The notes under the pieces: generated by a model | What the model saw: the letters and a program-made list of their open reading frames with translations, nothing else | What the model was told of the DNA's origin: nothing | Databases searched by the model: none | Part shown: positions 2,095 through 21,451 of the stretch, in pieces | How the letters are laid out: every line of letters begins with the position of its first letter | How positions within the stretch are numbered: position 1 is the first letter of the stretch | Made by a program: the position numbers and the translations under genes | NCBI GenBank assembly: GCA_002162795.1 | Contig: MAAY01000077.1 | Coordinates: forward strand, 64,669-108,471 | Length of the DNA: 43,803 nt | Source: Rhodobacterales bacterium 56_14_T64 | GTDB lineage: Bacteria > Pseudomonadota > Alphaproteobacteria > Rhodobacterales > Rhodobacteraceae | Direction: 5' to 3'

Positions 2095-4731
2095 TTATTC
2101 GGCAGCCACTGGGAGGATGAGCGACGGTAACAGTCCCGCCAGTTCTGACCGGCAGGATCCACAGTTGGTGCCGGCATCCACGGCCTCTCCAATGGCCTCG
2201 ACGCAGGTCAGGCTCTGCTCCTCGATTGCAGTCAAAATGGTATTGCGGCCAACGTTGTAGCAGGCACAGACAATTGGGCCGGGGTCGGGCATTCCGGCGG
2301 CTGGGCGGCCGGACAATACGGCATCGCCATCGGTGCCGGGCAGTTGTGCCAGATGATCCCGCGACAGAGCGATGGTGGTTGGCGCCGCAAACAACGCGCC
2401 AACCAGTTGACCATCTTTGTAAAAGGCAAACCGATAGATGCCGCGCGCCGGGTCGCAGAGGCTTTGCTCGGTGGCATCGGAGACGCCAACCAAGTCGCGG
2501 GCATAGGCGGCCCAGTCCTGTGGGGCGTCCATACCTGCCAGCTCGGTTCTCCAGCCGGTCTTGGTGCGGGATAGGGCCCAATAGTCGGATGCCGGCCGCA
2601 TTTGGTTCATCGAGACCGCAAAGCCATGCCATCCGGGCCGGAACTTGGACAGCGCGACCACGGTGGCTTTGCTTTCGGGTTGGCCTGACACGGCATCAAC
2701 CACTGGCGGCACCAGATTGTCGATGCGGGCCGAGGGCGCGGTCTCATTGGTCCAGTGGATTGGGGCAAAGACCTCACCCGGCAATACGGTATCGGTGATC
2801 AGCACCCGCATGATTGCACTGCCCTGTGGACTGTGCACCGAGATCAGATCGGCAGGTTTGAAGCCCTGCTCAGCAGCGTTACGCGGGTGGATTTCCAGAA
2901 ATGGTTCACCCAGATGCGCCGACAGACGTGGTGATTTGGCGGTGCGGGTCATGGTGTGCCATTGGTCGCGCACCCGCCCGGTGTTCAGACGAAATGGGAA
3001 CCGAGGCCCGGTTTTTGCGTTTGGTGCACGGTGTTGTAGCGGCAGCATTCGTGCCTTGCCCGAAGGTGTAAAGAACTTGCCGTCAGCAAAGAAGCGACCA
3101 CCGTTGCGGGCTTGCGTTACCGGCCAGCGGGTTGGTTCCAGTGCGTCATATCCATCTTCGCCCAGGTCGGACAGGCCCGAGATGTCAAAGTCGCGGCCCA
3201 TAGTAGCGGCCTGACCGGACAGTTTGGCATATTCGTCAAAAATCTCCGCGGGGGATGTGTAGCTGAACGCCTCGTTCCAGCCCATGCGGCGGCCAACCTC
3301 GGCTAGGATTTCCCAGTCGGGTTTCGCCTCGCCGGGTGCAGTCAATACGGCGCGTTGGCGGCTGATGGTGCGGTCAGAATTGGTGACGGTGCCCGATTTC
3401 TCGGCCCAGCCGGTGGCAGGCAGCTGCACGTCGCACAAACGCGCGGTATCGGTGGCACCGGTGATGTCACTGACGACGGTAAAGTCGCAGGATTTGATCG
3501 CCGCACTGACCGCATCGGCATCTGGCATCGACACGGCAGGGTTGGTGTGAATGATCCACAAGGCCTTGATCCGGCCATCGCCCACTGCCTTGAACATATC
3601 GACAGCCTTCAATCCCGCAGCAGTGGGCAGGGTCGGCGACTGCCAATAGTCCTGCACCAGTTGCCGGTGATCGGCGTTTTCAATGTCCAGATGGCAGGCC
3701 AACATATTGGCCAATCCACCCACCTCGCGCCCACCCATGGCGTTGGGCTGGCCAGTCACACTGAACGGACCCATGCCGGGCATACCGATGCGACCGGTGG
3801 CAAGGTGGCAGTTCAGGATCGAATTGACTTTGTCACTACCACTTGAGGACTGGTTGACCCCTTGGCTGAACACGGTGACGACGCGTTTGGTATTGATCCA
3901 CAGATCGGTAAATTCGCGAATCTGTTCGGCGTCCAGACCAGTGACTGACGGGTCGCTGTTGCGGGCCGCTTCAAAGGCAGCTTGCGCGCCTTCGACATGG
4001 TCCAGAAACGAAGGATCAGTGGAATCTTTTTCCTCGATTGCTGTCAAAAGTGCGTTGAACAGAGCCACATCTGCGCCGTTGCGCAGTTGCAGGTGCATGT
4101 CAGCGCCATCACAGGATGCAGTGCGGCGAGGATCGACCACGACCAGCTTCATCTCGGGTCGTTCGGCCCGGGCAGCTTGGATGCGTTGGTTCAGAACCGG
4201 GTGGCACCAAGCCAGATTTGATCCGACCAGCACGATCAGATCGGCCTGTTCGAGATCGTCGTAAGTCCCCGGCACGGTATCAGTGCCAAAGGCGCGTTTG
4301 TGGCCAGCCACGGTAGACGCCATGCAGAGCCGGGAATTGGTATCGATGTTGGCCGAGCCCATGAATCCCTTCATCAGCTTGTTGGCGACATAGTAATCTT
4401 CGGTCAGCAGTTGCCCCGAGACATAAAAGGCAACGCTGTCGGGCCCGTGTTCGGCAATGGTCTGCGAAAACTTGGAGGCCACCAGATCCAGTGCGGTATC
4501 CCAGTCGGTGTCAGTACCATTGACGCGTGGGGCCAGCAGGCGATCGTCCAGACCAACTGTCTCCCCCAGCGCATTGCCTTTGGAGCACAGGCGACCACGG
4601 TTTGCCGGGTGATCAGGATCACCGCGTACATCCAAACCACCTTGGCCATCGGCGCGCAGCAGCAGCCCACAACCCACTCCACAATACGCACAGGTTGATC
4701 GAATTTCGGGGAGACCGCTGCCGTCCATCAT
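2095..4731 (-). CDS. nasA: Assimilatory nitrate reductase, molybdopterin catalytic subunit
   Basis: An 878-residue cytoplasmic molybdoenzyme reducing nitrate to nitrite. The N-terminus carries a [4Fe-4S] site with Cys14, Cys17, Cys21 and Cys49 (STCAYCGVGC, then RLCSKG). The large bis-MGD domain follows, with NIDTNSRLCMAS, VLVGSNLAWCHP and VTGQPNAMGGREVG, then the molybdopterin dinucleotide-binding domain near residues 600-720. The last 60 residues form a BFD-like [2Fe-2S] domain (IVCACYNVG and GTNCGSCR), as in the longer bacterial NasA/NasC enzymes. No separate NasB electron-transfer flavoprotein is present in the window. The start overlaps the nirD stop (ATGA). Two ATGs are adjacent; the first is used here. 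Confidence 0.95.
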   Translation of the reverse strand: MMDGSGLPEIRSTCAYCGVGCGLLLRADGQGGLDVRGDPDHPANRGRLCSKGNALGETVGLDDRLLAPRVNGTDTDWDTALDLVASKFSQTIAEHGPDSVAFYVSGQLLTEDYYVANKLMKGFMGSANIDTNSRLCMASTVAGHKRAFGTDTVPGTYDDLEQADLIVLVGSNLAWCHPVLNQRIQAARAERPEMKLVVVDPRRTASCDGADMHLQLRNGADVALFNALLTAIEEKDSTDPSFLDHVEGAQAAFEAARNSDPSVTGLDAEQIREFTDLWINTKRVVTVFSQGVNQSSSGSDKVNSILNCHLATGRIGMPGMGPFSVTGQPNAMGGREVGGLANMLACHLDIENADHRQLVQDYWQSPTLPTAAGLKAVDMFKAVGDGRIKALWIIHTNPAVSMPDADAVSAAIKSCDFTVVSDITGATDTARLCDVQLPATGWAEKSGTVTNSDRTISRQRAVLTAPGEAKPDWEILAEVGRRMGWNEAFSYTSPAEIFDEYAKLSGQAATMGRDFDISGLSDLGEDGYDALEPTRWPVTQARNGGRFFADGKFFTPSGKARMLPLQHRAPNAKTGPRFPFRLNTGRVRDQWHTMTRTAKSPRLSAHLGEPFLEIHPRNAAEQGFKPADLISVHSPQGSAIMRVLITDTVLPGEVFAPIHWTNETAPSARIDNLVPPVVDAVSGQPESKATVVALSKFRPGWHGFAVSMNQMRPASDYWALSRTKTGWRTELAGMDAPQDWAAYARDLVGVSDATEQSLCDPARGIYRFAFYKDGQLVGALFAAPTTIALSRDHLAQLPGTDGDAVLSGRPAAGMPDPGPIVCACYNVGRNTILTAIEEQSLTCVEAIGEAVDAGTNCGSCRSELAGLLPSLILPVAAE

Positions 4732-5063
4732 TCAGCCGCTACTGCAGTAACCGCCGAAGCCGCAATCAGGATGCGACCGTCTTCCAGCTTGATCGGATAG
4801 GTCGCAACCGTGCCTTCGTCTGCGCCTTGGGCTTCGCCAGTCGTCAGATCAAAGACCCAATTGCGCATCGGGTCGGTGACCTTGTTGTCATGCTGGATGC
4901 CGTTCGACAGAGGACCGGCTTTACCAGGCAAATATTCATCCAGCGCAAAGACTTCGCTGGTGGCGGTTCGGAACACTGCGATGTCACCGCGGTGGGTGCG
5001 CACTACGCGTGCACCGCGCAGAGGGATGTCAGTCAAGCTGCCGATATCGATAAAATTGCTCAT
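4728..5063 (-). CDS. nirD: Nitrite reductase (NADH) small subunit
   Basis: A 111-residue NirD, partner of NirB in the cytoplasmic reduction of nitrite to ammonium. It has a Rieske-like fold, but the cluster ligands are absent: the usual CPH and CPLH segments read LPGKAGPLS and DPMRNWVFDL. This is normal for NirD. It overlaps nirB upstream and nasA downstream by 4 bp each (ATGA), which indicates tight translational coupling. Confidence 0.94.
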   Translation of the reverse strand: MSNFIDIGSLTDIPLRGARVVRTHRGDIAVFRTATSEVFALDEYLPGKAGPLSNGIQHDNKVTDPMRNWVFDLTTGEAQGADEGTVATYPIKLEDGRILIAASAVTAVAAE

Positions 5064-7504
5064 TCTGCTGCCACCTTTGTAAAGTCTGCCAGAGGGGTGA
5101 ATTCATGCGCGTCTACGCCCTGTTTTGCGCGCTCGGCCCATGGGTCAATCTGGTAGAATTTCTGCGAGTAATGGAACTTCTCCGCTTTCTCTTTGCGGTT
5201 TTCCAAATCGTCGACGATCTGTTCCTTGATCCAGTCCAGACCCACCTTGGCGATCCATTTGTAAGGGCGGTGCAGATACTGCGCGCCCTCACGGTAGAGC
5301 TGGTAGAACGCACAGGAAACGTCGATGGCCTCTTCTTCACTTGCAACCTGAACCAACAGCTCAGTTTGACGCAGGTCCAGACCCGCCGCGCCGCCAACCA
5401 AAATCTGATAGCCACTGTCCACACAGATGATGCCGAGATCCTTACAGGTTGCTTCGGCGCAGTTGCGCGGACAACCCGAGACGGCCAGTTTGAATTTATG
5501 CGGCGACCAAGCGCCCCACATGGCTTCTTCGATCTTGATGCCCAGACCGGTTGAGTCCTGAGTACCAAAGCGGCAATGTTCGGTGCCAACACAGGTTTTC
5601 ACCGTGCGCAGACCCTTGGCATAGGCCTGACCAGATATCATGCCGGCCTTGCCCAAATCGTACCAGATGGCTGGCAGATCTTCTTTCTTGATACCCAAAA
5701 GGTCGATGCGCTGACCGCCGGTCACTTTGACGGTTGGCACATTGTATTTGTCAGCTGCATCGGCGATGGCGCGCAGCTCGTCCGGGGTTGTGATGCCGCC
5801 CAACATGCGCGGTACAACCGAATAGGTGCCGTCTTTTTGGATGTTGGCGTGGACACGTTCGTTGATGAAACGGCTTTTACCGTCATCCTCGTAAGCACCG
5901 GGCCATGCGCAAACCATGTAATAGTTCAGCGCCGGACGGCAGATGTGACAGCCACAAGAGGTTTTCCAGTCCAGCTCCTGCATTGCTTGCGGGATCGACT
6001 TCAGCTCTTTAGCGATGATCAGCTTGCGCACGTCATCGTGAGACATGTCGCTACACTTACAGATGACCTCTTTCTCGGGCATCCTGAAATCATCACCAAG
6101 GGTGAGGCCCAGAAGGTCAGCCACCAAACCGGCACAACTACCGCAAGACGACGCCGCCTTGGAGGTCGCTTTTACCGCATCCAGCGTATGAGCGCCGACA
6201 TTGATTGCCGCAACAACTTGAGCTTTGGAAATGCCGTTGCAGCCGCAGATTTCTGCATCATCCGGCAAGGCTGCAACGGCTGCCAACGGGTCCATGGTGG
6301 ACCCTCCCTGGTAGGCCGGGCCAAAAATAAGAGTGTCGCGCATGTCCGAGATGTCGGTGGCGTCTTTGATCAGGCCAAAGAACCAGCTGCCATCATCAGT
6401 GTCACCGTACATAACAGCGCCAACCAGCGTGTTGTTTTCAATGACCAGACGTTTGTAGACGCCACGGGCCGGGTCACGGAAAATGATGTCTTCGCGGTTT
6501 TCGCCCTCGGCAAAGTCGCCAGCGCTGAACAGATCACAGCCTGTGACTTTCAGCTTGGTCGACACTTCTTTCTGAACAAACTTAGCTTCTTCACCCAGCA
6601 GGGTTTTGGCGGCAACTTTGGCTTGTTCGTACAGTGGAGCAACCAGACCAAACAGAGCACCGTCATGTTCGACACATTCGCCAACGGCCAAAATGTCTTC
6701 GTTTGAGGTCAGCAGTTGATCGTCAACGTGGATACCACGTCCAACCATGATGCCCGACTCGCCGGCCAGCGCTGTGTTGGGGCGGATGCCAACGGCCATG
6801 ACCAACAGGTCACAGGGGATTTCGGTGCCATCGTCCAGCAGCAGAGCGCGGACCTTGCCGTCTTCGCCCAGGATCTCTTTCGAGTTGGCAGAACACTTAA
6901 CTGTAATGCCCTTATCAACCAGCGCGCGGCGCAGCAGATAGCCGGCGGCTTCGTCTAGCTGACGTTCCATCAGGTGACCCATGATGTGGATCACTGTGAC
7001 ATCAACGCCACGGGCAGCCATGCCAGCGGCAGCTTCGAGTCCCAGTAGGCCGCCACCGATGACAACGGCGCTGTGACCGTCGCCCAGACCCATCATGCGC
7101 TGAGTGTCTTCCAGATCGCGGTAAGCAATCACGCCTTCCAGATCATGACCGGGCAGGGGGATGATAAACGGGTTGGAGCCAGTGCCAAACAGCAGTTTGT
7201 CGTAGGCCAGAATATCACCGTTTTCGGCGGTAACGGTTTTGGCTGCACTATCGACCGAAGCAATCTTTTCACCGAACCGGCAGGTGACGCCGTTTTCTTC
7301 GTACCAGTCGGCGTCGTGGATGACGATTTCCTGGTAGGTTTTGTCGCCGGAGAGCACTGGCGACAACATGATGCGGTTATAATTACCACGCGGCTCGGCG
7401 TTGAACAGGGTGATGTCATAGGCATCAGGATCTGCGTCGCGCAGGTGTTCGATCACCCTGCCCGAGGCCATGCCCGCCCCGATTATTACAAGTTTTTGGG
7501 TCAT
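5060..7504 (-). CDS. nirB: Nitrite reductase (NADH) large subunit
   Basis: An 814-residue siroheme enzyme reducing nitrite to ammonium with NADH. The order is an N-terminal FAD/NAD pyridine-nucleotide-disulfide oxidoreductase domain (VIIGAGMASGRVIEHL, VVIGGGLLGLEAA), a BFD-like [2Fe-2S] domain (ICGCNG and SSCGSCAG), a second Cys-rich segment (ICKCSDMSHDD, SCGCHICRP), then the nitrite/sulfite reductase domains. The [4Fe-4S]-siroheme cysteines lie in TCVGTEHCRFG and SGCPRNCAEATC. I place the start at ATG 7504 (MTQKLVIIGAG), which has a GGAG 8 nt upstream and lies 4 nt after the nrtCD stop. A longer in-frame extension to 7567 would run into nrtCD and has no domain support. No siroheme synthase gene is in the window. 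Confidence 0.95.
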   Translation of the reverse strand: MTQKLVIIGAGMASGRVIEHLRDADPDAYDITLFNAEPRGNYNRIMLSPVLSGDKTYQEIVIHDADWYEENGVTCRFGEKIASVDSAAKTVTAENGDILAYDKLLFGTGSNPFIIPLPGHDLEGVIAYRDLEDTQRMMGLGDGHSAVVIGGGLLGLEAAAGMAARGVDVTVIHIMGHLMERQLDEAAGYLLRRALVDKGITVKCSANSKEILGEDGKVRALLLDDGTEIPCDLLVMAVGIRPNTALAGESGIMVGRGIHVDDQLLTSNEDILAVGECVEHDGALFGLVAPLYEQAKVAAKTLLGEEAKFVQKEVSTKLKVTGCDLFSAGDFAEGENREDIIFRDPARGVYKRLVIENNTLVGAVMYGDTDDGSWFFGLIKDATDISDMRDTLIFGPAYQGGSTMDPLAAVAALPDDAEICGCNGISKAQVVAAINVGAHTLDAVKATSKAASSCGSCAGLVADLLGLTLGDDFRMPEKEVICKCSDMSHDDVRKLIIAKELKSIPQAMQELDWKTSCGCHICRPALNYYMVCAWPGAYEDDGKSRFINERVHANIQKDGTYSVVPRMLGGITTPDELRAIADAADKYNVPTVKVTGGQRIDLLGIKKEDLPAIWYDLGKAGMISGQAYAKGLRTVKTCVGTEHCRFGTQDSTGLGIKIEEAMWGAWSPHKFKLAVSGCPRNCAEATCKDLGIICVDSGYQILVGGAAGLDLRQTELLVQVASEEEAIDVSCAFYQLYREGAQYLHRPYKWIAKVGLDWIKEQIVDDLENRKEKAEKFHYSQKFYQIDPWAERAKQGVDAHEFTPLADFTKVAAE

Positions 7505-7508
7505 AGGG

Positions 7509-9191
7509 TCACTCCGCTGCAATGGGGATTGTGGCTGGTTTCGGGGAGGGGTTGGCGCCATGCGCATAATCTTCGAGGAAGTCGAGAACCTCCTGCCGGT
7601 AGGTGTAGTAGTCCGGGTGCTCCAGCAAGGCCTTACGGGTGCGGGGGCGCGGCAAGTTGACCTCGGTGATTTTGCCGATCGTGGCTTGCGGTCCGTTGGT
7701 CATCATCACCACCCGGTCGGCCATTAGGATCGCCTCGTCCACGTCATGGGTGACGCAGACCGCAGTGACCTTGGTGCGGGACCAGACCTCCATCAGCACT
7801 TCTTGCAGCTCCCAGCGTGTCAGGCTGTCGAGCATGCCAAAGGGTTCATCTAACAAAAGCAGTTTGGGGCTGAGCGCAAAGGCGCGGGCAATGCCGACGC
7901 GCTGCTGGGTGCCGTTGGACAGGCTGTGGGCTGGCATATCCATGGAATCGGCTAAGCCAACGCGCTCGAGGTAGTATTCCACCACATCGCGCAGTTCCTC
8001 GCGCGATGCTTTGGGGTAGACCTTTTCTACCCCAACGGCGACATTTTCCTTGGCGGTTAACCAGGGGAACAGGTTTGGCGATTGAAACACCACCGCGCGT
8101 TCCGGGTCGGCCCCTTCGACGTGCTTGCCGTCCAGCTTGATGGCGCCTTTGGAAATTTCATTGAGGCCAGCGGCCATAGACAACACTGTGGATTTTCCGC
8201 AGCCGGAATGGCCGATCAGAGAAATGAACTCTCCCCGGTTTACCTTGAGGTTAAAATCTTCGACCACGGTCAGCGGGCCTTTGGGGGTAGGGTAGACCTT
8301 GTGCAGCTGGCTGAAGTCGAGAAAGCGTTTTTCGACCATCGTCTTACCGGCTGTTTTCACCGCTGCGGGCAGGCTGTGGATCGGGGTTATGTCTGGCAAT
8401 TGGCGAGTGCCTTCGACCTTGGCCTCGATGCCCACATCCATCAAAAAGCTGGTGACCTCGGTACGCAGAGCCTTGAAACCCTCGTGGTGGTTCATTTCTT
8501 CGCGAATGCGCGGGTGGGGGATGTCCACGATGAAAGGAGTACCCAGCGTTCCATCCGGGTTCAGCGGCACAATGCGGTCGGCCAGTTGGATCGCCTCGTC
8601 CACATCGTTGGTGATCAGAATGCAGGTCTTGGCGTCATTTTGGCAGATCTCCAGGATCTCATCCGCCAGGTTGGCGCGTGTCATCGCGTCCAGCGCCGAT
8701 AGCGGCTCGTCCAGCAGCAGCATTTCGGGGTCCATTGCCAGGGCGCGGGCAATCGAGACCCGCTGCCGCATGCCACCCGACAGTTCCGCCGGACGCCGGT
8801 GCGCGGCAGGGGTAAGGCCAACCATCTGGATGTAATGCTCTACTTTGGCGGCTTTCTCACTGGCAGCCATGCGTGGAAACACTGCATCCACCGCCAGCCG
8901 CACATTGCCGGCAACCGTCAGCCAGGGCATCAACGAGTAGTTCTGAAACACCAGCCCGCGCTCGGGGCTGGGGCCGTTGATCGGTTTGCCTTTGAATTTC
9001 ACGCTGCCCCTGTCCGGGGTTTCTAGCCCGGCGATCATGTTCATCAGGGTAGATTTGCCTGTGCCCGAGAAGCCCAGAATGGCAAGAAACTCACCCTCCT
9101 GGACCTCCAGGTCAATATCATTAAGCACCTCAACGCGATTGGCACCTTCGCCAAAGCCTTTGTGAACGTTATTAAATGTCAGGATTGCCAT
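7509..9191 (-). CDS. nrtCD: Nitrate ABC transporter, two ATPase domains fused
   Basis: A 560-residue protein holding two complete ABC ATPases joined by a linker of roughly 60-80 residues; it powers NrtB. Domain 1 has Walker A GFSGTGKST (40-48), signature LSGGM (137-141) and Walker B LLLDEP, but its H-loop reads ITNDVDEA with Asn195 where His is usual. Domain 2 has Walker A GHSGCGKST (327-335), H-loop VTHDVDEA (His482) and a degenerate signature LSNGT (424-428). Because ABC sites form between domains, both defects fall in one composite site and the other is canonical. The start is ATG 9191, with GGTGA upstream; GTG 9200, overlapping the nrtB stop as GTGA, is the alternative (563 residues). Confidence 0.93.
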   Translation of the reverse strand: MAILTFNNVHKGFGEGANRVEVLNDIDLEVQEGEFLAILGFSGTGKSTLMNMIAGLETPDRGSVKFKGKPINGPSPERGLVFQNYSLMPWLTVAGNVRLAVDAVFPRMAASEKAAKVEHYIQMVGLTPAAHRRPAELSGGMRQRVSIARALAMDPEMLLLDEPLSALDAMTRANLADEILEICQNDAKTCILITNDVDEAIQLADRIVPLNPDGTLGTPFIVDIPHPRIREEMNHHEGFKALRTEVTSFLMDVGIEAKVEGTRQLPDITPIHSLPAAVKTAGKTMVEKRFLDFSQLHKVYPTPKGPLTVVEDFNLKVNRGEFISLIGHSGCGKSTVLSMAAGLNEISKGAIKLDGKHVEGADPERAVVFQSPNLFPWLTAKENVAVGVEKVYPKASREELRDVVEYYLERVGLADSMDMPAHSLSNGTQQRVGIARAFALSPKLLLLDEPFGMLDSLTRWELQEVLMEVWSRTKVTAVCVTHDVDEAILMADRVVMMTNGPQATIGKITEVNLPRPRTRKALLEHPDYYTYRQEVLDFLEDYAHGANPSPKPATIPIAAE

Positions 9192-9196
9192 GCCAT

Positions 9197-10270
9197 TCAC
9201 CGATTGTTTGAGAAGGTGAAAAGGGACTGCAGGGCGAACATCACCCGGTCCAGCATCATGCCGATTATACCGATGGTCAGCACTGCAAGGATGATCCGGG
9301 CCAGCGACTGGCTCGATCCGTTCTGGAATTCATCCCAGACGAATTTGCCCAATCCGGGGTTCTGCGCCAGCATCTCGGCGGCGATCAGAACCATCCAACC
9401 GACCCCAAGGCTTAGCCGCAGCCCGGTAAAGATCAGCGGCAACGCCGAGGGCAGCACCAGCTTGGTGATCTTGCTCCAGAGCGACATTTTCAGCACCTTG
9501 GATACGTTGATCAGATCCTTGTCGATCGAGGCGACACCCAGCGAGGTGTTGATCAGGGTTGGCCACATGGAACAGAGGGTGACAGTGACCGCGGAAACCA
9601 TGAAGGACTTGCTGAACATGCCGTCGTTAGAAACGTAAACGGCGGAGACGATCATGGTGACAATCGGTAGCCAGGCCAGTGGCGATACCGGTTTGAAGAT
9701 TTGCACCAAAGGGTTCATCGCGGCGCTGGCGGTTGGCGACAGCCCGCCCAGAATGCCCAACGGGATCGCAATAGCCGAGGCGATCAGAAAGCCAAAGAAC
9801 ACCGTTTTTATCGAGGTCCAGATCTGGTCGTAATAGCTGGGCGCTCCGGTATATGCGATGTCTTTGACCCGCTCGGGCTTGCCGTCGGCGATCATCTTTG
9901 CATTGCGGTCTTCGACGCGCTGCTGGAATGTGGCCTTCTTTTCGGATTTTGCTACGGCATCATTGTGCAGGGTGACCATTTCCGTCCAGACCTGAGCCGG
10001 GCCGGGGATCACACCCAACGAAGTCTGAACCTTGGGTGCCATCACCCCCCACAGCACAAGAAAGCCAAGGATCGCCAGCAGCGGAACCAGCAGCAGGCGC
10101 CAGATCTCTCCCATCTGGGCGCGTGAGTTGTCGCCGGCTGCGGCCTTCATCACCGGGGTGAGCCATGCCAGCCCCAGCATCTGGAACCATTTGTCAGCCG
10201 CATTTATGCGGGTGAACAGGCGGGCACGGCGAGCCTCGGCGGTGGCAAAATCGGGATCAGCGATGGTCAT
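9197..10270 (-). CDS. nrtB: Nitrate ABC transporter permease
   Basis: A 357-residue inner-membrane permease of the NrtB/SsuC/TauC type. A hydrophobic segment lies near residues 59-80 (LLLVPLLAILGFLVLWGV). A polar stretch with NDAVAKSEKKATF follows, and then the binding-protein-dependent transport core from about residue 150 (IWTSIKTVFFGFLIASAIAI) to the C-terminus. The ATPase-coupling region reads NVSKVLKMSLWSKITKLVLP. It lies between the nrtA stop-proximal gap of 20 nt and nrtCD, which it overlaps or nearly abuts depending on the nrtCD start. Confidence 0.93.
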   Translation of the reverse strand: MTIADPDFATAEARRARLFTRINAADKWFQMLGLAWLTPVMKAAAGDNSRAQMGEIWRLLLVPLLAILGFLVLWGVMAPKVQTSLGVIPGPAQVWTEMVTLHNDAVAKSEKKATFQQRVEDRNAKMIADGKPERVKDIAYTGAPSYYDQIWTSIKTVFFGFLIASAIAIPLGILGGLSPTASAAMNPLVQIFKPVSPLAWLPIVTMIVSAVYVSNDGMFSKSFMVSAVTVTLCSMWPTLINTSLGVASIDKDLINVSKVLKMSLWSKITKLVLPSALPLIFTGLRLSLGVGWMVLIAAEMLAQNPGLGKFVWDEFQNGSSQSLARIILAVLTIGIIGMMLDRVMFALQSLFTFSNNR

Positions 10271-10290: not shown

Positions 10291-11658
10291 TTAGCCGTGC
10301 ACCACACCGTCATGGACGGTCTGGGTGTCTTTCAGGCCAATAGGCAGGCTATTAAGATAGGCGTTGGGAGTGCGGCCATCGAAGGGGATGCCGTCAATCA
10401 CATCAGCAGCGGGGGTCGGCTGTTTGTAGCCATCGCTGGCGAACGGAAAATCAGCTGCGTCGACCAGACCCTCATCAACCAGCAACTGCGCGGCCTGCAG
10501 GTAGATGTCTGGTTTGTACACCGAGCGGGCCACCTCATCATACCAACTGTCGGGTTTGGTATCGGCGATCTGCCCCCAGCGGCGCATTTGGGTCAGTGTC
10601 CAGACCGCATCCGAGTAGAACGGGTAAGTGGCATGGTGGCGGAAGAAGACGTTGAAATCGGGCGCCGGTCGAATGTCGCCGCTCTCATATTCAAAGCTGC
10701 CGGTCATCGAGGCCGCGATCACATTGCGGTCGGCACCGACGTATTCCCGGCGCGACAGCAGCTCGACCGCCGCCTCTCGGTTGGCGTTGTTGTTTTCGTC
10801 CAGCCAAATGGCGGCGCGGATGAGCGCTTTGACCACCGCCAGGGTGGTGTTTGGATTTTCCCTGGCAAATTCAGCGGAGATGCCAAAGACCTTTTCGGGG
10901 TTGTTCTTCATCAGCTCGTAATCGGTGATCACCGGCACACCGATGCCCTTAATAACCGCCTGCTGGTTCCACGGCTCACCAACGCTGTAGCCATTGATTG
11001 TTCCAGCTTCGAGCGTCGCAGGCATTTGTGGTGGCGGCGTCACCGAGAGCAGGGCCTGAGCCCCGATCTGACCTGTGATGTCCTGTGGACTATAATAACC
11101 GGGGTGGATACCACCCGCCGCGAGCCAATAGCGCAGCTCGTAATTATGCGTTGAGACGGGGAAAACCATCCCCATGTTGAAGGGCCGACCTGCATCATTA
11201 AACTGTTCAATCACCGGCACCAGTGCGCTGGCAGAAATCGGATGCTGTGGACGACCATCCTCTTGTGAGGGAATATGCGGCCGCATGCCGTTCCAAACTT
11301 CTTGGGATACGGTGATGCCGTTGCCATTCAGATCCATCGAGATCGGGGTAATGATATGCGCCTGGGTGCCATAGCCAATTGTGGCCGCCAGCGGTTGCCC
11401 GGCCAGCATGTGGGCACCAGCCAGCTGCCCGTCGATGACACGGTCCAGCAGCACCTTCCAGTTGGCTTGCGATTCCAGGGTCACAAACAGGCCTTCATCG
11501 TCAAAGAACCCCTGTTCATAGGCCACTGCCAGCGGTGCCATGTCGGTCAGCTTGATAAAGCCGATGGTCAGAACATCCTGCTCCAGCTCGAGCGGCTCAG
11601 ATATGGATGGGCTTGCCAGAGTTGTAGCAACACCAAGGCTGCATAGAATTCTCTTCAT
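10291..11658 (-). CDS. nrtA: Nitrate ABC transporter substrate-binding protein
   Basis: A 455-residue periplasmic nitrate-binding protein. It starts with a Sec-type signal peptide ([20 protein letters not shown], cleavage probably before EPLELEQ). The mature protein has the NrtA-type opening [20 protein letters not shown] and the motifs [17 protein letters not shown] and [13 protein letters not shown]. The signal peptide and the transporter genes downstream argue for NrtA rather than its cytoplasmic relative NasS. ATG 11658 is preferred, since it opens the signal peptide and has GGAAG upstream; ATGs at 11676 and 11694 lack a ribosome site. Expression is probably controlled by the hexaloop leader upstream. 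Confidence 0.93.
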
Positions 11659-11964
11659 AGCGAGATGATCTTCCATGTGATTGAGAAACAACAAAAAGCT
11701 TTAGACGCGCTGTGCCATTTGGCGAACGGTCGAGCGGCTTTGCTCCGAAATTCCCAATCGTTGGGAGAGATGCTAAGGCAAGCTCCGTTGCTTGCGATAT
11801 GGTCAGAATTGCGGGTGTTTGCGCCGACGACAACGGATTTTGCCGCATCGCAGCATAAGATGCAGGCAGGTGCCTAATTTTTGGGCACATTTCCTGGGGC
11901 GGGCGCTGAATCGCGACGCTTGGAGAACCGATTACATGGAATCAGCAGAGGGCCAAGTGACGGT
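11659..11964 (-). promoter_or_regulatory. nrtA leader RNA with two-hexaloop ANTAR (NasT) target
   Basis: This 306-nt gap between nasT and nrtA holds no gene. On the minus-strand RNA it contains a perfect 6-bp stem with a 6-nt loop, GCAAGC-AACGGA-GCTTGC (11778-11795), and downstream a 4-bp stem with a 6-nt loop, GAGC-AAAGCC-GCTC (11732-11745). Both loops have A at position 1 and G at position 4, the pattern known for ANTAR antiterminator targets. The two are separated by 32 nt that include another hairpin (11752-11766). A T-rich stretch, AGCTTTTTG, follows at 11693-11701. I could not find a convincing terminator stem before it. NasT is encoded directly upstream. Confidence 0.68.
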
Positions 11965-12549
11965 TCAGGAGAGTAAATCGCTCGCGGTGACGATAGCCTG
12001 AGCGATCTCGGCGATGCGTTTTCCCTGATCCATTGCGCTTTTGCGCAGCAGTTCATAAGCCGCAGCTTCGTCTATACCTCGGGCGCTCATCAGCAAGCCT
12101 TTGGCCCGGTCAATCACCTTGCGCTGTTCCAGTTCCTGCTTGGTATCGCTCAATTCTGTGCGGATTTGGTTCAGCATGGTGAACCGTTGATGCGCAGCCT
12201 GCAGGATGGGCTGCAGCCGCTTTGACTGCAGCCCATCCACCACATAGGCAGAGACACCAGCCTGAAGGGCCGCCCGGGTAAGATCGTCATTCGATTGATC
12301 GACAAACAGCACAACGGCCCGTTTTGTTGGGTCCGAAGCCAATACCAGTTGCTCGGTTTCCAACAGCGATGGAGAACCGGCGTCGATCACCACCAGATCC
12401 GGATTGCCATTGTCGACCCTGCGCGCCAACCCGTCAGGACCAGATATGGTCTCCACGTCAAAGCCACCAGCGTGCTGTAGAGCAGCAGAAATCTGCGATG
12501 CACGGGGCTGAATGCATTCGACAACTAGGATCGAGAGTATCTGAGTCAT
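11965..12549 (-). CDS. nasT: ANTAR-domain response regulator, nitrate antiterminator NasT
   Basis: A 194-residue cytoplasmic RNA-binding regulator. Residues 1-120 form a receiver-like domain (ILSILVVECIQPRAS, LVVIDAGSPSLLE). Its acidic pocket is incomplete, with E replacing the usual paired Asp. A coiled linker (ELSDTKQELEQRK) leads to the ANTAR domain at about 135-194, with VIDRAKGLLMSARGIDEAAA and AEIAQAIVTAS. In characterised systems NasT binds a two-hexaloop leader to stop termination and is held inactive by the nitrate sensor NasS. Here nasT heads the nitrate genes and faces such a leader, but no nasS is adjacent. The ribosome site before the ATG at 12549 is weak. Confidence 0.92.
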   Translation of the reverse strand: MTQILSILVVECIQPRASQISAALQHAGGFDVETISGPDGLARRVDNGNPDLVVIDAGSPSLLETEQLVLASDPTKRAVVLFVDQSNDDLTRAALQAGVSAYVVDGLQSKRLQPILQAAHQRFTMLNQIRTELSDTKQELEQRKVIDRAKGLLMSARGIDEAAAYELLRKSAMDQGKRIAEIAQAIVTASDLLS

Positions 12550-12933: not shown

Positions 12934-14484
12934 TCAAAGCACGGAAATAGCGAAACTTTCCACGGGCTTGGAGACATTGTGCAAGCTGACCGCACCAAGG
13001 GGCGACGCCATGGACTTGTCACTAAGAATATCGCGGCTGACGACAATTGGATGGCCGCGCGATTTGCCAAAATCCCCCAACCGAGCCGCAATGTTGGCGG
13101 CCTGACCGATAACAGTGAAATCCAACCGCTCGCGCGAGCCGACATTGCCATAGGTGACACCGCCGTAGGCGATGCCGATGGCGCATTCACAATGGTGCCC
13201 GTCTTCCTCTTTTGCGATTTCCTCCAGCCGGGCAACGATAGCGCGGGCTGAATTGAGCGCCTGTGCGCGGGCCTCCGCCGGATTTTCATCGGCGGGGAAC
13301 ACCGCCAGAACAGCGTCGCCGATGAATTTCAGCACTTCGCCGCCGTGGTCATGAATGATTGTTGAAGTGGTTTCAAAAAATTGGTTGAGCAGCTTGATAT
13401 AGGCCACACGGCCCAGTTCTTCTTCAAGACGGGTGGAGCCGCGCAGGTCGCAAAACATGATAGCCGCATCAATATCGTCGCCGTCACCCCGGTGGATCTC
13501 GCCTCCCAACACGCGCGCGCCCGAACGTTTGCCAACATAGGTCTCCAACAAAGACTGCGCATTTTCGCGCTGCATGAAGACCTCGTAAAAGCGCCCGATC
13601 ACAGCCGAGCACTCAAAGATCAGCCCCAAATTGGCGGTTGAAAAGCCGGTGAGATGATCGCTGGTCAGGGTCAGCACATTGATGCTCCCGTCCGAGAACC
13701 GCAGCGGCATTGCAACATAATCGGTGGCACCTTCCTTGCGCAGATCCTCCAAAATCGGGAACGCGTCGGTGGGATGATTGCCGCCAAGCCGGTGACGGAC
13801 CCCGCCCATACCATTGGAGACATGCCGCAGTGGGCTGTTCTGATATGACGGGTGGTCGTGGATCTCATAGGACGGGGCAAAGGTGTTGACCTCACCGTTC
13901 GATTTTTTCCAGACAAAATTCTTACCGGCAATCATCGGGTGTAGCGACCAAACCATCACCGCCATGCGCGACAGGTACACACCCTGCTCCCGCAGTTTGT
14001 CAGCCAGGGCCGCAGTAAACTTTTCCGGGGTTGGCAGATAGGCGGCCTCACGCAGCAACCAGTCGATCACCGGCCCCGAGATATTGCCGTCATCTCGCGC
14101 CAGTATCTCATTATCGCCAAGGTCTAAGTCGGTAAAGGCGCCTGGCATGAAACCAATATGCCCGTTGATCGCCGAGGCTTCGGGCAAGGCCTCGTTATAG
14201 GCCCAGGTTGCGTTCTTTATTGGTGCATCTGGCAGCAGAAGATCGCGGTAAATGGCGGTGCCTTTAAACGGGCAAAACGTCTGCAACTCGGTTCGTTTGG
14301 ACAGGTCGGCGGTCACATCCTCGGGAGGGAAATAGATGGTCGGCTTCAGGCGTGTTTCATACATCACCTTGGCCTTGTCGCTCTGAGCCAGCAGCACCCC
14401 ATTGTGGCGCAGGGTCACCGTCCCGGTGAGCTGTTCAATCAGAATGTCATAGCCATCCTGTTCCGGCTTTACATGCACGTTCAT
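12934..14484 (-). CDS. DUF427-class III adenylate cyclase fusion protein
   Basis: A 516-residue soluble protein with three parts. Residues 1-125 are a DUF427 domain (TIYFPPEDVTADL, TFCPFKGTAIYRDL, GHIGFMPGAF). Residues 135-320 match the sensor-like region often found before alphaproteobacterial cyclases (ending MQRENAQSLLETYVGKRSG). Residues 338-510 are the class III cyclase domain. Metal-binding aspartates are D346 (FCDLRGST) and D390 (KFIGDAVLAVF). K386 and T457 occupy the base-selecting positions in the class IIIb combination, and N464 and R468 the transition-state positions, so the enzyme should be active and make cAMP. No membrane segment is seen. The ATG at 14484 has GAGAGGG upstream. 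The input sensed through DUF427 is unknown. Confidence 0.88.
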   Translation of the reverse strand: MNVHVKPEQDGYDILIEQLTGTVTLRHNGVLLAQSDKAKVMYETRLKPTIYFPPEDVTADLSKRTELQTFCPFKGTAIYRDLLLPDAPIKNATWAYNEALPEASAINGHIGFMPGAFTDLDLGDNEILARDDGNISGPVIDWLLREAAYLPTPEKFTAALADKLREQGVYLSRMAVMVWSLHPMIAGKNFVWKKSNGEVNTFAPSYEIHDHPSYQNSPLRHVSNGMGGVRHRLGGNHPTDAFPILEDLRKEGATDYVAMPLRFSDGSINVLTLTSDHLTGFSTANLGLIFECSAVIGRFYEVFMQRENAQSLLETYVGKRSGARVLGGEIHRGDGDDIDAAIMFCDLRGSTRLEEELGRVAYIKLLNQFFETTSTIIHDHGGEVLKFIGDAVLAVFPADENPAEARAQALNSARAIVARLEEIAKEEDGHHCECAIGIAYGGVTYGNVGSRERLDFTVIGQAANIAARLGDFGKSRGHPIVVSRDILSDKSMASPLGAVSLHNVSKPVESFAISVL

Positions 14485-18230: not shown

Positions 18231-18300
18231 CCCCACAGACTACCTAGAAATTTCGGAACACCGCCGGTGCCCGTGACTTGTCACGTGGCACCATACCTTG

Positions 18301-18326
18301 CCCCGCCTATCAGGCGGGGTCTTTTG
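18301..18326 (+). terminator. Intrinsic terminator after ccrM
   Basis: CCCCGCCT and AGGCGGGG form a perfect 8-bp stem with a 3-nt loop, followed by TCTTTTGGTTTT. It lies 70 bp after the ccrM stop and 76 bp before the next start, so it separates ccrM from the cyclase gene. Confidence 0.9.
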
Positions 18327-18401
18327 GTTTTAGACGTTGGAATTGGGGGTTCTTTTTGGTTTAGTCAGTGCATATCTAGGCTCCGTCCCAAAGGAATAGC
18401 C

Positions 18402-19787
18402 ATGACCGACACCACAGTTGCGCCCCTGCCAACATACCGACCCGAACGGCATGTGGATCTTGCTGATGCAGTGGCCGATAACGCCTATGCCGAGGCCACA
18501 CTTGAGGAACACAAAAGGCGAGGTCTGGTGTGGGCCATTCGAGCGCGATGGACCGCGATGCCACTGATCGGGATTATGCTGGTGTTCATAAATCCGACTT
18601 GGAACGTGATGTACTACCACGTGATACTGGGCCTGCTTTGTCTCAATGGTTGGATGATGGGGCGGTTGGGCAAAGTGGGGCGATCAGGCTATGAATTGCT
18701 TCTGATCTTTTTAGACCTGTTGCTGATGACCGTCACTATGGTGGTCCCAAATCCGTTTGCTGCGCAGGATTTTCCGATTGCGATGCAGTATCGGTTTGAC
18801 AATTTCATCTACTTTTACGTGATACTAGCGGCGGGCACGCTGGCCTATTCATGGCGCACGGTGATTGCCATTGGCACCTGGACTGCGGGGATGTGGACGG
18901 TTGCGCTGATTGCGGCGTGGTGGCTGTCGCCGGTGGATGAGGCCCTGCAACAGCGGGCCAGTGATCTGTTTGGTGACAACGATTTGTTGGCCCGATTTAT
19001 GGATCCATCCAGCTTTATGTTCCACCTCAGGGTGCAAGAAGTGGTGGTCTTTGTCATCGTTGCGGTGATCTTGGGATTCTCGGTGCGCCGGTTCAATGCG
19101 CTACTGATGAACAATGCCAGCCTGACCCGTGAACGGGCCAATCTGTCGCGGTATTTCTCGCCCAATGTGGTGGATCAACTGTCACAAAACGATGAGCCGC
19201 TGAAACAGGTCCGCAGCCAAGACGTGGCGATTTTGTTCATCGATATCATCGGCTTTACGCGGATGGCGGCGGGGCTTGATGCGCTGAAAGTGATCGAAAT
19301 GCTGCGCGGATTTCATGGCCGAATGGAGCATGAGGTGTTTCGGCATCACGGCACTCTGGACAAATATCTAGGAGATGGGTTGATGGCGACCTTTGGGACG
19401 CCGATGGCCGGAACTCAAGACGCAACCAATGCCGTGGCCTGCGCGCGCGCAATGATCGTTGCCTTGGATCAGTGGAACCTGGAGCGTCGCCGAAAGGGCG
19501 AGCACGAAATCCACGTGGGCATTGGTATTCATTTCGGCGAAACAGTTCTGGGTGATATCGGCGCAAATCGGTTGGAATACGCAGTAATAGGGACGGCAGT
19601 AAACATTGCCGCGCGGCTGGAGGAGATCTCGCGTCCATTACAGGCCAGGATCGTGATGAGTGACCAACTGCGCGATCAAGTTGGATCTGAGAACGTTGAA
19701 AACAGTTTGGTCGAGGGTTTCGTCAGGCAGGCTGATCAAGACATTAAGGGGTTTGATCAGACAATGACTGTCTGGACTTTAAGTTGA
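18402..19787 (+). CDS. Membrane-bound class III adenylate/guanylate cyclase
   Basis: A 461-residue protein. Residues 50-230 hold about six hydrophobic membrane segments (for example MPLIGIMLVFI, ELLLIFLDLLLMTVTMVV, EVVVFVIVAVILGFSV). A linker with NLSRYFSPNVVDQLS leads to the cyclase domain (275-450). Metal aspartates are D281 (FIDIIGFT) and D325 (KYLGDGLMATF). K321 fills one base-selecting position, but the partner position, Thr in the other cyclase of this window, is Ala394 (EYAVIGTAVN). N401 and R405, the transition-state residues, are present, so activity is expected while the nucleotide preference is less certain. The ATG at 18402 has AAGGA upstream; an in-frame extension upstream runs through the terminator and is rejected. 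Confidence 0.88.
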   Translation: MTDTTVAPLPTYRPERHVDLADAVADNAYAEATLEEHKRRGLVWAIRARWTAMPLIGIMLVFINPTWNVMYYHVILGLLCLNGWMMGRLGKVGRSGYELLLIFLDLLLMTVTMVVPNPFAAQDFPIAMQYRFDNFIYFYVILAAGTLAYSWRTVIAIGTWTAGMWTVALIAAWWLSPVDEALQQRASDLFGDNDLLARFMDPSSFMFHLRVQEVVVFVIVAVILGFSVRRFNALLMNNASLTRERANLSRYFSPNVVDQLSQNDEPLKQVRSQDVAILFIDIIGFTRMAAGLDALKVIEMLRGFHGRMEHEVFRHHGTLDKYLGDGLMATFGTPMAGTQDATNAVACARAMIVALDQWNLERRRKGEHEIHVGIGIHFGETVLGDIGANRLEYAVIGTAVNIAARLEEISRPLQARIVMSDQLRDQVGSENVENSLVEGFVRQADQDIKGFDQTMTVWTLS

Positions 19788-19990: not shown

Positions 19991-21451
19991 ATGACAGATG
20001 ATGCACGACACCAGATTTCCAAGTGGTTTGATCTCGGAGACGAGAACTCGGATTTACTGGCTGAGCTTGGCAAAGTGCTAACCCCAAAATTTGACCAGAT
20101 TTTGGATGAGTTTTATGAGCTGATCTTGGGCCGATCTGAAACTGCTAGCTTCTTTCAGGATCCCAAAGTTGCCGCACACGCAAAATCGGCGCAGAAAGCT
20201 CATTGGGAACGTCTGTTTTCAGGTAAGTTTGACCGGTTGTATATGGAATCGGCCGAGCGAGTTGGACGTGTGCATTTTCAGATCCAGTTGCCATTCCTGC
20301 TTTATCTTGGTGGATATTCCGAAGCTGGGACCAAGATGCTTGAAATTATTTTGCGCCAAGGCCGATTGGGTAACAAGAAAAAGGTCGCGAAACAGGCCAG
20401 CCTGTTGATTCGGGTAATGATGGCGGATTGCGAGCGCGTGATTGACGCCTATTTTACCGCACAACAAGAAGAGCAGAGCAAAGCGCTGGCGATTATGACT
20501 GATGGTATCGAGCGGCTGGAAAATGGCGACCTTTCCATCAAAATCCGGTCGAGTGAGGGTGGCGGTTTTCCCGAGAAATTTGACGGAATGCGGGAATCGT
20601 ACAATAACCTGATCGACCGTTGGTCTAGTATCATTGGGTCTTCGACTAACAGCGCCCATTCGGTGGACGCCAAAATGGCCACGACATCGCAGATGACACG
20701 GGATTTGGCGGAGCGCTCTGAACAGCAAGCGGCCACCTTGGAAGAGGCAGTGGCAGCGGTCAGTCAGGTGACGGTCGCCACCAAAGAAACCCGCGAAATG
20801 GTTGGGAAGGCAGCGAAAAAGTCAGAGCAAAATCATCTGGATGCTGAAGCAGGTGGAGCCGTGGTCAAAGAGGCAATTGCTGCCGTGGTGCGGATCGAGA
20901 AGTCTTCGGAGCAGATCGCCAAATTTGTAGATGTTATTGATGATATCAGCTTTCAGACCAATTTATTGGCCCTGAATGCTGGTGTCGAAGCAGCCCGTGC
21001 CGGTGACGCCGGACGTGGTTTTGCTGTGGTTGCCTCGGAAGTGCGGGCCTTGGCTGCACGGGCCTCGGAATCGGCGAGTGAAATCAAGTCTCTGATTTCC
21101 GAAAGCGCGGTGCAAGTGCGTGATGGATGTGACCTAGTGCGGCAAACGGGTGAAAGCCTGGAGTGTATTCGGTCTGGTGCCCGCGAGGTATCGAGTGTGA
21201 TGGAGGAAATCACCGACGTGATTGCGACTCAGTCGATGAGCCTTGTTGAGATTGACGCCAGTATGACGGACTTGGGCCATACAACGCAGGATAGCGCAGC
21301 CATGGCGACGAATGTGTTTGAAACAGCAGCCGGGTTGGCTACGGATTCAGCGGCGCTAAAGCATAGTATGGATGGATTTCAGATTGACCGGCGGAGATCC
21401 GATGAAACTGCCATGGATTTGGAATACATCACAGCCGAACGAATAGCATAA
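19991..21451 (+). CDS. Globin-coupled chemoreceptor (HemAT-like), soluble
   Basis: A 486-residue methyl-accepting chemotaxis protein with an N-terminal globin sensor (1-155). The proximal haem ligand is probably His95 in [20 protein letters not shown], matching the H-x3-L-P pattern of globin-coupled sensors. A HAMP-like piece follows ([18 protein letters not shown]), then the signalling domain with its conserved hairpin tip ([35 protein letters not shown]). There is no membrane segment, so it should sense oxygen or another haem ligand in the cytoplasm and signal to CheA. The ATG at 19991 is preferred: another ATG 6 nt upstream meets a stop after two codons. No chemotaxis genes are nearby, and the 203-bp gap before it shows nothing I can name. 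Confidence 0.92.

Follow-up and report, generated by a model that had tools for sequence, protein, structure and literature searches.

A fused nitrate importer ATPase with altered motifs assigned to one of its two ATP sites, and its split relatives

The nrtCD gene and its setting

The window, by which we mean the whole 43,803-nucleotide stretch of DNA analysed, carries a nrtCD gene whose setting, judged by domain matches, is an ordinary nitrate-assimilation gene cluster with all neighbours on the same strand:

2095..4731, minus: assimilatory nitrate reductase-like molybdoenzyme (TIGR01591 and a NasC-type model match best, both below cut-off)
5060..7567, minus: nirB, nitrite reductase large subunit (TIGR02374, 857 bits)
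7509..9191, minus: nrtCD, fused two-domain nitrate importer ATPase of 560 amino acids (ATG at 9191; TIGR01184, 582 bits)
9197..10270, minus: nrtB-like permease (TIGR01183, 152 bits, under its cut-off of 209; PF00528)
10291..11694, minus: nrtA-like substrate-binding protein (PF13379, 286 bits)
11965..12549, minus: ANTAR response regulator, NasT-like (PF03861)

The coding strand of nrtCD is the minus strand, the same frame on the plus strand containing stops, and the window protein (P0001) matches the TIGR01184 ntrCD model in two stretches, the score standing against a curated cut-off of 291.8. The true start of nirB probably lies just past the nrtCD stop. Membership of the nitrate ABC importers is indicated by the adjoining genes, which encode a binding protein (NMT1_2), a permease (BPD_transp_1), NirB and the molybdoenzyme. 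The only NMT1_2 protein among the window frames scanned starts with a signal-peptide-like stretch, and among the same frames no NasS partner of the ANTAR regulator was recognised. Adjoining the regulator is a gene (12934-14484, minus) for a protein with DUF427 (NTP_transf_9) and nucleotide cyclase domains. Another gene with a cyclase domain is found at 18267-19787, and at 19991-21451, on the plus strand, a protoglobin is fused to a chemotaxis signalling domain in an aerotaxis-sensor-like layout.

The ATPase motifs of nrtCD are as follows, with the two sites named according to the composite-site rule discussed below:

9048..9074, minus: domain 1 Walker A GFSGTGKST, intact, residues 40-48 (altered site)
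8769..8783, minus: domain 1 signature LSGGM, residue 137 (completes the canonical site)
8688..8720, minus: domain 1 Walker B (at residue 158), catalytic Glu and D-loop SALD
8607..8609, minus: codon AAC for Asn195 in the domain 1 H-loop ITNDVDEA (altered site)
8187..8213, minus: domain 2 Walker A GHSGCGKST, residues 327-335 (canonical site)
7908..7922, minus: domain 2 signature LSNGT, residue 424 (altered site; the usual family form is [LM]SNGM)
7827..7838, minus: domain 2 D-loop GMLD, with Met453 in place of the Ala of its kin
7746..7748, minus: codon for His482 in the domain 2 H-loop VTHDVDEA (canonical site)

The sequence-only reading of this gene had named LSGGM and Asn195 in domain 1 and LSNGT and His482 in domain 2, and all of these residues are correct in the 560-residue translation; it mentioned neither the strand nor the domain 2 D-loop GMLD. 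A fold predicted from an alignment of 58 sequences (the window protein plus 57 of 116 references) has a mean pLDDT of 85.4 and a pTM of 0.77. In Foldseek searches, the model aligns over its full length to the fused OppD/DppD proteins from two importers with solved structures (TM per target 0.65-0.75, rmsd 6.5-12 Å), whilst its halves align singly to NrtC/NrtD and CmpC/CmpD. In ABC dimers the domain 2 D-loop lies beside the site to which Asn195 and LSNGT are assigned here. D-loops are placed at the centre of the dimer interface in PMC7756269. The composite-site rule given in the same review pairs the Walker motifs and H-loop of one domain with the signature of the other. Applied to the nrtCD sequence, this rule supports the placing of Asn195 and LSNGT in one ATP site, and likewise of His482 and LSGGM in a second site that is canonical; by this rule-based assignment, the H-loop and signature deviations are confined to a single composite site.

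Fused NrtCD proteins and the two domain classes

Relatives were collected from the family (149 genomes, 57 of them with a match at an E-value of 1e-80 or below, two of these matches being partial), the class (385 genomes, 34 matched at 1e-100) and the phylum (398 genomes, 103 matched at 1e-60, many of these being single-domain kin), and 26 further loci were added from a single scan across genome contigs. Fused rows were admitted on length and score, without regard to motif. Together with the window, 120 fused frames yielded 119 distinct rows; the two repeats are L027, which is the window gene itself, and a genome sampled twice. In these rows, with 33 plasmid records left out of the motif counts, the domain 1 H-loop has Asn in 119/119 (the window included) and the domain 1 signature is LSGGM in 119/119. 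One row, L137, stops short of the domain 2 signature; in the remaining 118 readable rows the signature is [LM]SNG, the domain 2 D-loop is GMLD and the domain 2 H-loop has His, without exception. An invariant Asn and SNG on this scale rule out a sequencing error or the oddity of one genome. The degenerate part of the LSNGT signature is thus a family trait, whereas its final Thr, which had been read as part of the same degeneracy, is local: the residue after SNG is Met in 115 of the 118 rows and Thr in three only (the window, L001 and L011). The earlier proposal that LSNGT completes the Asn195 site, leaving the other canonical, is upheld in that the pairing follows from the composite-site rule and its motifs are fixed in the fused proteins, with the rule itself as its basis. 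A changed catalytic Glu, a frequent mark of degenerate sites, is not seen: the domain 1 Walker B reads DEP in 119/119 rows, and across the fused set domain 1 has kept its Walker A, its Walker B and its catalytic Glu intact.

At the DNA level, a pattern for T-N-D-[V/I/M]-D-E-A was found at 57 places in 56 of the 149 family genomes searched. Fifty-five of these places are NrtCD genes, and 55 of the 57 family NrtCD loci contain the pattern; the other two places are a shortened NrtCD-like remnant (L288) and L289, a frame that tblastn does not match to P0001. In the remnant (G126:C33:57000-61000, match at about 1051-1746), a 289-amino acid frame joins the start of domain 1, with LSGGM and ITNDVDEA, to the end of domain 2, and looks like the one-domain product of an internal deletion in a fused nrtCD. 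Two partial matches, L138 (G066:C1, query residues 360-560) and L141 (G857:C39, query residues 307-542), have no domain 1 match nearby and do not lie at a contig end; they are possibly decaying nrtCD copies.

To place these proteins among their kin, 362 distinct domains from 247 loci were compared, identical segments being counted once (397 reduced to 362) and domains below 130 bits or 150 residues being dropped. The domain 1 class comprises 142 domains, all with Asn and all with SGG. The domain 2 class, also of 142, has His throughout, with SNG in 119, SQG in eight, SMG in one and SGG in 14, and a D-loop residue of Met in 130, Arg in 11 and Lys in one. The other 78 domains all have SGG and His, and their D-loop residue is never Met, Arg or Lys. 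The class labels draw on the motifs in these counts, in the tree labels and in the identity comparison below, whilst the fused rows, the masked tree and a sorting by score are motif-free. Sorting all 362 domains by similarity score to each half, with margins set after the data had been seen, gave identical classes and counts, and no domain-1-like row without Asn emerged when score alone was used. In a tree with the motifs masked (140 of the 362 domains, quick method), each class forms one clade with SH-aLRT support of 99, and neither clade contains a canonical row. Eleven residues are class-specific. They include Asn195 and Met453, as well as Phe41 in the domain 1 Walker A and Ser456 after the domain 2 D-loop; Leu164 and Ser165 fall at the domain 1 D-loop, a part of the other site, and the remaining five lie elsewhere.

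The fewest changes required on the tree are one for the H-loop, one for the D-loop (Ala to non-Ala) and three for the signature (degenerate or canonical), with the Asn and the D-loop change each having a single origin. Because these two arose once each, there are almost no independent contrasts from which covariation might be judged: one or two contrast pairs, with a sign test p of 1. The co-occurrence of H-loop, signature and D-loop changes is, in these sequences, striking, yet it is based on very few evolutionary events.

A single origin of both changes would also be expected if site 1 (that of Asn195) had simply drifted in an obligate heterodimer until compensating changes locked it, a neutral ratchet giving the site no function of its own. 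The rates of change in the fused group fit such a history, in that domain 1 diverges faster: mean identity, from at most 2000 sampled row pairs, is 68.2% for the domain 1 core and 82.1% for the domain 2 core, with a smaller gap in the helical parts (70.2% and 77.1%). The domain 1 Walker motifs have not decayed, however, and the H-loop codons argue the other way. Among the 142 domain-1-like domains the Asn is encoded by AAC in 82 and AAT in 60. A single base change would turn either into a His codon, and yet none of these domains, drawn from two phyla, has His. Since both codons are used and His is so close, the pattern speaks for selection on Asn195 rather than drift, as far as sequences can tell, and we regard the ratchet as improbable.

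Split pairs in the Planctomycetota

In two Limnoglobus loci (Planctomycetota) the two ATPase domains are encoded by neighbouring genes. In Limnoglobus roseus (L017) the domain 1 gene (3001-3849) and the domain 2 gene (3846-4724) overlap by four bases, which suggests coupled translation. A search of 294 genomes of the phylum (29 matched at 1e-55), together with one of 298 genomes of one class (14 matched at 1e-80), brought the readable split pairs to 23. Asn is present in 23/23, although 'Asn in every pair' is partly by construction, the 21 pairs in the tree having been chosen with Asn as the mark of domain 1. The signature is degenerate in nine pairs and canonical SGG in 14. Amongst the 21 tree pairs, the degenerate signatures (SQG in seven, SMG in one) all go with a D-loop Met, whilst the 13 with SGG have a D-loop Arg (11), Lys (one) or Met (one). 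Two extra pairs that their loci show incompletely or not in a single frame were read piecewise outside the tree: L229, with Asn, SQG and Met and its two domains in different frames, and L237, with Asn, SGG and Met. No pair among those read combines a signature change with a domain 1 His. Three domain 2 rows have no partner in their own locus, namely L138, L231 (whose partner is L243 in the same genome) and L230 (G1396:C270; SQG, Met), which has no domain 1 match in its 3.4-kb locus. As the two split genes of G1296 lie about 1.4 kb apart, the partner of L230 may be further away.

The split genes carry the same Asn, which rules out an artefact of domain fusion. The earlier emphasis on a single chain is thereby only partly borne out: the protein in the window is indeed fused, but fusion is no requirement, since the Planctomycetota have this asymmetry in two separate genes. 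Across these sequences, the Asn is the fixed element, whilst the signature and D-loop vary, and with 14 of 23 pairs canonical in signature, a degenerate signature is not needed. Relatives having just one of the two changes at random had been named beforehand as evidence against a linked pair of defects. Half of that description applies, 14 of the 23 pairs having Asn with a canonical signature, but the pattern is not random and none is reversed; with only the signature and D-loop varying, the loss of either change at random is ruled out.

A joint tree of the 21 planctomycete pairs and 16 of 118 Pseudomonadota pairs places the Arg/Lys D-loop group in one clade (99/99). A tree that confines the degenerate rows to a single side of some branch passes the AU test (p = 0.298), so the data are compatible with gain of the altered signature or with its reversion. 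The identity gap of the fused group is absent here, the cores of 20 planctomycete pairs standing at 64.0% for domain 1 and 63.7% for domain 2; faster change of the domain 1 core is thus no general rule.

The setting of the pairs, where it can be read from the neighbouring genes, is again one of nitrate use. L017 has NrtA upstream and a NirB-like reductase downstream, L178 an NrtB-like permease, L233 and L236 ANTAR and NMT1_2 genes, L179 and L187 molybdopterin oxidoreductases and L232 a nitrite/sulphite reductase. Downstream of SGG/Arg pairs lie a chlorite-dismutase-like protein (L182, 815-1573) and a 4Fe-4S DmsB-like protein (L183, 3302-3805), a setting which differs from the NirB setting of L017. 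A 4Fe-4S protein flanks L181 and an alginate-export-type protein flanks L231 and L234; several other planctomycete flanks that were tested gave no informative domain.

The split pairs bring into view a second account, in which both sites hydrolyse ATP and Asn195 replaces the switch His at little loss. Its amide might still reach the gamma-phosphate, and variants of the signature (Asn, Gln, Met or Gly) and D-loop (Met, Arg or Lys) would only tune rate or affinity. The canonical signature kept or regained in 14 of 23 pairs agrees with this, as do the intact Walker A, Walker B and Glu of domain 1 and the wild-type-like transport of ABCC1 with Asn or Gln at the NBS2 H-loop (PMC7756269). The intact motifs and the tolerance of ABCC1 also leave the earlier suggestion that one site only binds ATP unsupported in that strict form. 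Against hydrolysis at both sites, the changes in H-loop, signature and D-loop coincide whilst the motifs of the other site are canonical (some class-specific residues do lie elsewhere), SNG is retained in 118/118 of the fused lineage, and it is the domain 1 core that changes faster in the fused group. On balance we think hydrolysis at both sites rather unlikely.

Other two-site ATPases and the working of the altered site

The same genome offers a control. From 122 matches, 45 loci were selected, giving 70 ABC domains in 49 proteins, and among the 66 readable domains the H-loop Asn is confined to the nrtCD protein, which rules out its chance occurrence. Seven fused proteins (L248, L252, L253, L255, L257, L259 and L262) have a degenerate domain 1 signature and a non-His domain 2 H-loop, which together make one degenerate composite site; seven more (L251, L254, L256, L258, L263, L264 and L265) have two canonical sites each. 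We call these RbsA-type and Opp/Dpp-type, labels assigned from motifs rather than by family search. With the window protein, 8 of 15 fused importer ATPases in this sample thus have one degenerate site. The RbsA-type proteins are the mirror image of nrtCD, with the signature of domain 1 and the H-loop of domain 2 changed; in all seven the domain 2 Walker A has also lost its Lys, and in four the DE of Walker B is changed. With its LSGGM and GHSGCGKST, the window protein is not one of them. In one genome, then, a mirror-image defect and no defect provide a fair control for nrtCD.

RbsA and NupO, grouped under the type II importers in PMC11466899, are described there as having, like nrtCD, one chain, two ABC domains and one degenerate composite site. 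With such proteins on record and seven of the type in this very genome, asymmetry in a single-chain importer is not the new kind of arrangement for which it had been taken. The kind, a fused importer in which one site is degenerate, is an established one; what is new is the importer class, the invariant Asn alongside intact Walker motifs, and split relatives that separate the motifs.

Amongst exporters and channels, the ABCC proteins (MRP1, CFTR) and TAP have, like nrtCD, a degenerate site 1. In MRPs the first Gly of the domain 2 signature is Val (PMC9898250), so that the change falls at the same position as in nrtCD. PMC7756269 notes H-loop deviations in ABCC7 and ABCB2/B3, and states that in human full-length ABC proteins degeneracy always falls at site 1 and in every case comes with changes in the domain 2 signature. 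The catalytic Glu is usually changed in the ABCC proteins and TAP, unlike nrtCD, in which the Glu is intact and the H-loop has Asn. The fused OppD/DppD proteins of Mycobacterium tuberculosis (8j5q, 8wdb), single-chain peptide importer ATPases, are among the best full-length fold matches of nrtCD at 22-24% identity, the comparison being of fold rather than motifs; another two-domain ATPase (8s7v_K, TM 0.70) ranks between the OppD and DppD matches. For E. coli DppBCDF, PMC12136057 reports ATP analogues on DppF only in the complex alone, both motif sets being seemingly functional, and that with DppA both ATPases could hydrolyse. Asymmetry thus need not be visible in motifs.

The closest solved relatives in sequence are the cyanobacterial NrtBCD and CmpBCD (PDB 8w9m, 8wm7, 8wm8, 9u9z, 9ua0, 9ua1), nitrate and bicarbonate importers with two different ATPase subunits, to which the halves of nrtCD show 48-50% identity in the fold search. 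Unlike the fused nrtCD, their ATPases are separate proteins, with longer NrtC/CmpC chains (665-690 amino acids). The aligned CmpD and CmpC chains have SGGM, GALD and THD, again unlike nrtCD, and the cyanobacterial domains in the tree have SGG, GALD and His. A structure of NrtBCD with PII is listed for this cyanobacterial relative, which shows the importer class to be controllable at the ATPase. It might be supposed from this that site 1 is a regulatory nucleotide sensor, under energy or nitrogen control, and not a mechanical clamp. No regulator, ligand or extra domain was found here, ABC_tran alone being convincingly above its cut-off in a Pfam scan of the window protein, and we give the idea very little credence. 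On site asymmetry in nitrate importers, the passages of PMC3688454 that were consulted say nothing, and among the matches listed in a literature search on nitrate importer ATPases, with subscription journals thinly covered, no title or abstract deals with it.

The likeliest interpretation, at a probability of roughly 0.6, is that nrtCD combines one altered site, slow or ATP-holding, with one canonical power site. Site 1 would be formed by the Walker motifs of domain 1 and Asn195 and closed by LSNGT, with the altered D-loop GMLD alongside; site 2 would comprise the Walker motifs of domain 2 and His482, closed by LSGGM, and be canonical. ATP would stay longer in site 1, hydrolysed slowly or not at all, and might there hold the two domains near each other, whilst site 2 would fire in each uptake cycle. 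In its favour are the fixed Asn and SNG of the fused proteins, the motif-free recovery of the two domain classes, the codon evidence for Asn195, the nitrate-assimilation setting and, in the fused group, the lower conservation of the domain 1 core, where the Walker motifs of the altered site lie. Against such asymmetric working stand the intact domain 1 Glu, the tolerance of ABCC1, the 14 canonical signatures and the equal cores of the planctomycete pairs.

It is still debated why so many ABC proteins retain an ATP site that works poorly; PMC7756269 discusses the matter with regard to exporters and describes how the pattern arose as enigmatic. In the present case the asymmetry is conserved by a family of type I importers, both fused and split, and its natural variants take H-loop, signature and D-loop apart. 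Tentatively, and with rather less confidence than we place in one slow or ATP-holding site beside a power site, these proteins may represent an ancient nitrate importer class, in which a power site is joined by an altered site whose mark is the invariant Asn of the H-loop, and in which the signature and D-loop take their states as if compensating for one another. The altered site is mostly found in either of two states, an SxG signature with a Met D-loop or SGG with Arg or Lys, and two pairs have SGG with Met. If the reading holds, such a natural series would reveal which element of a degenerate site matters for its working, and growth on nitrate would provide the score for this importer.
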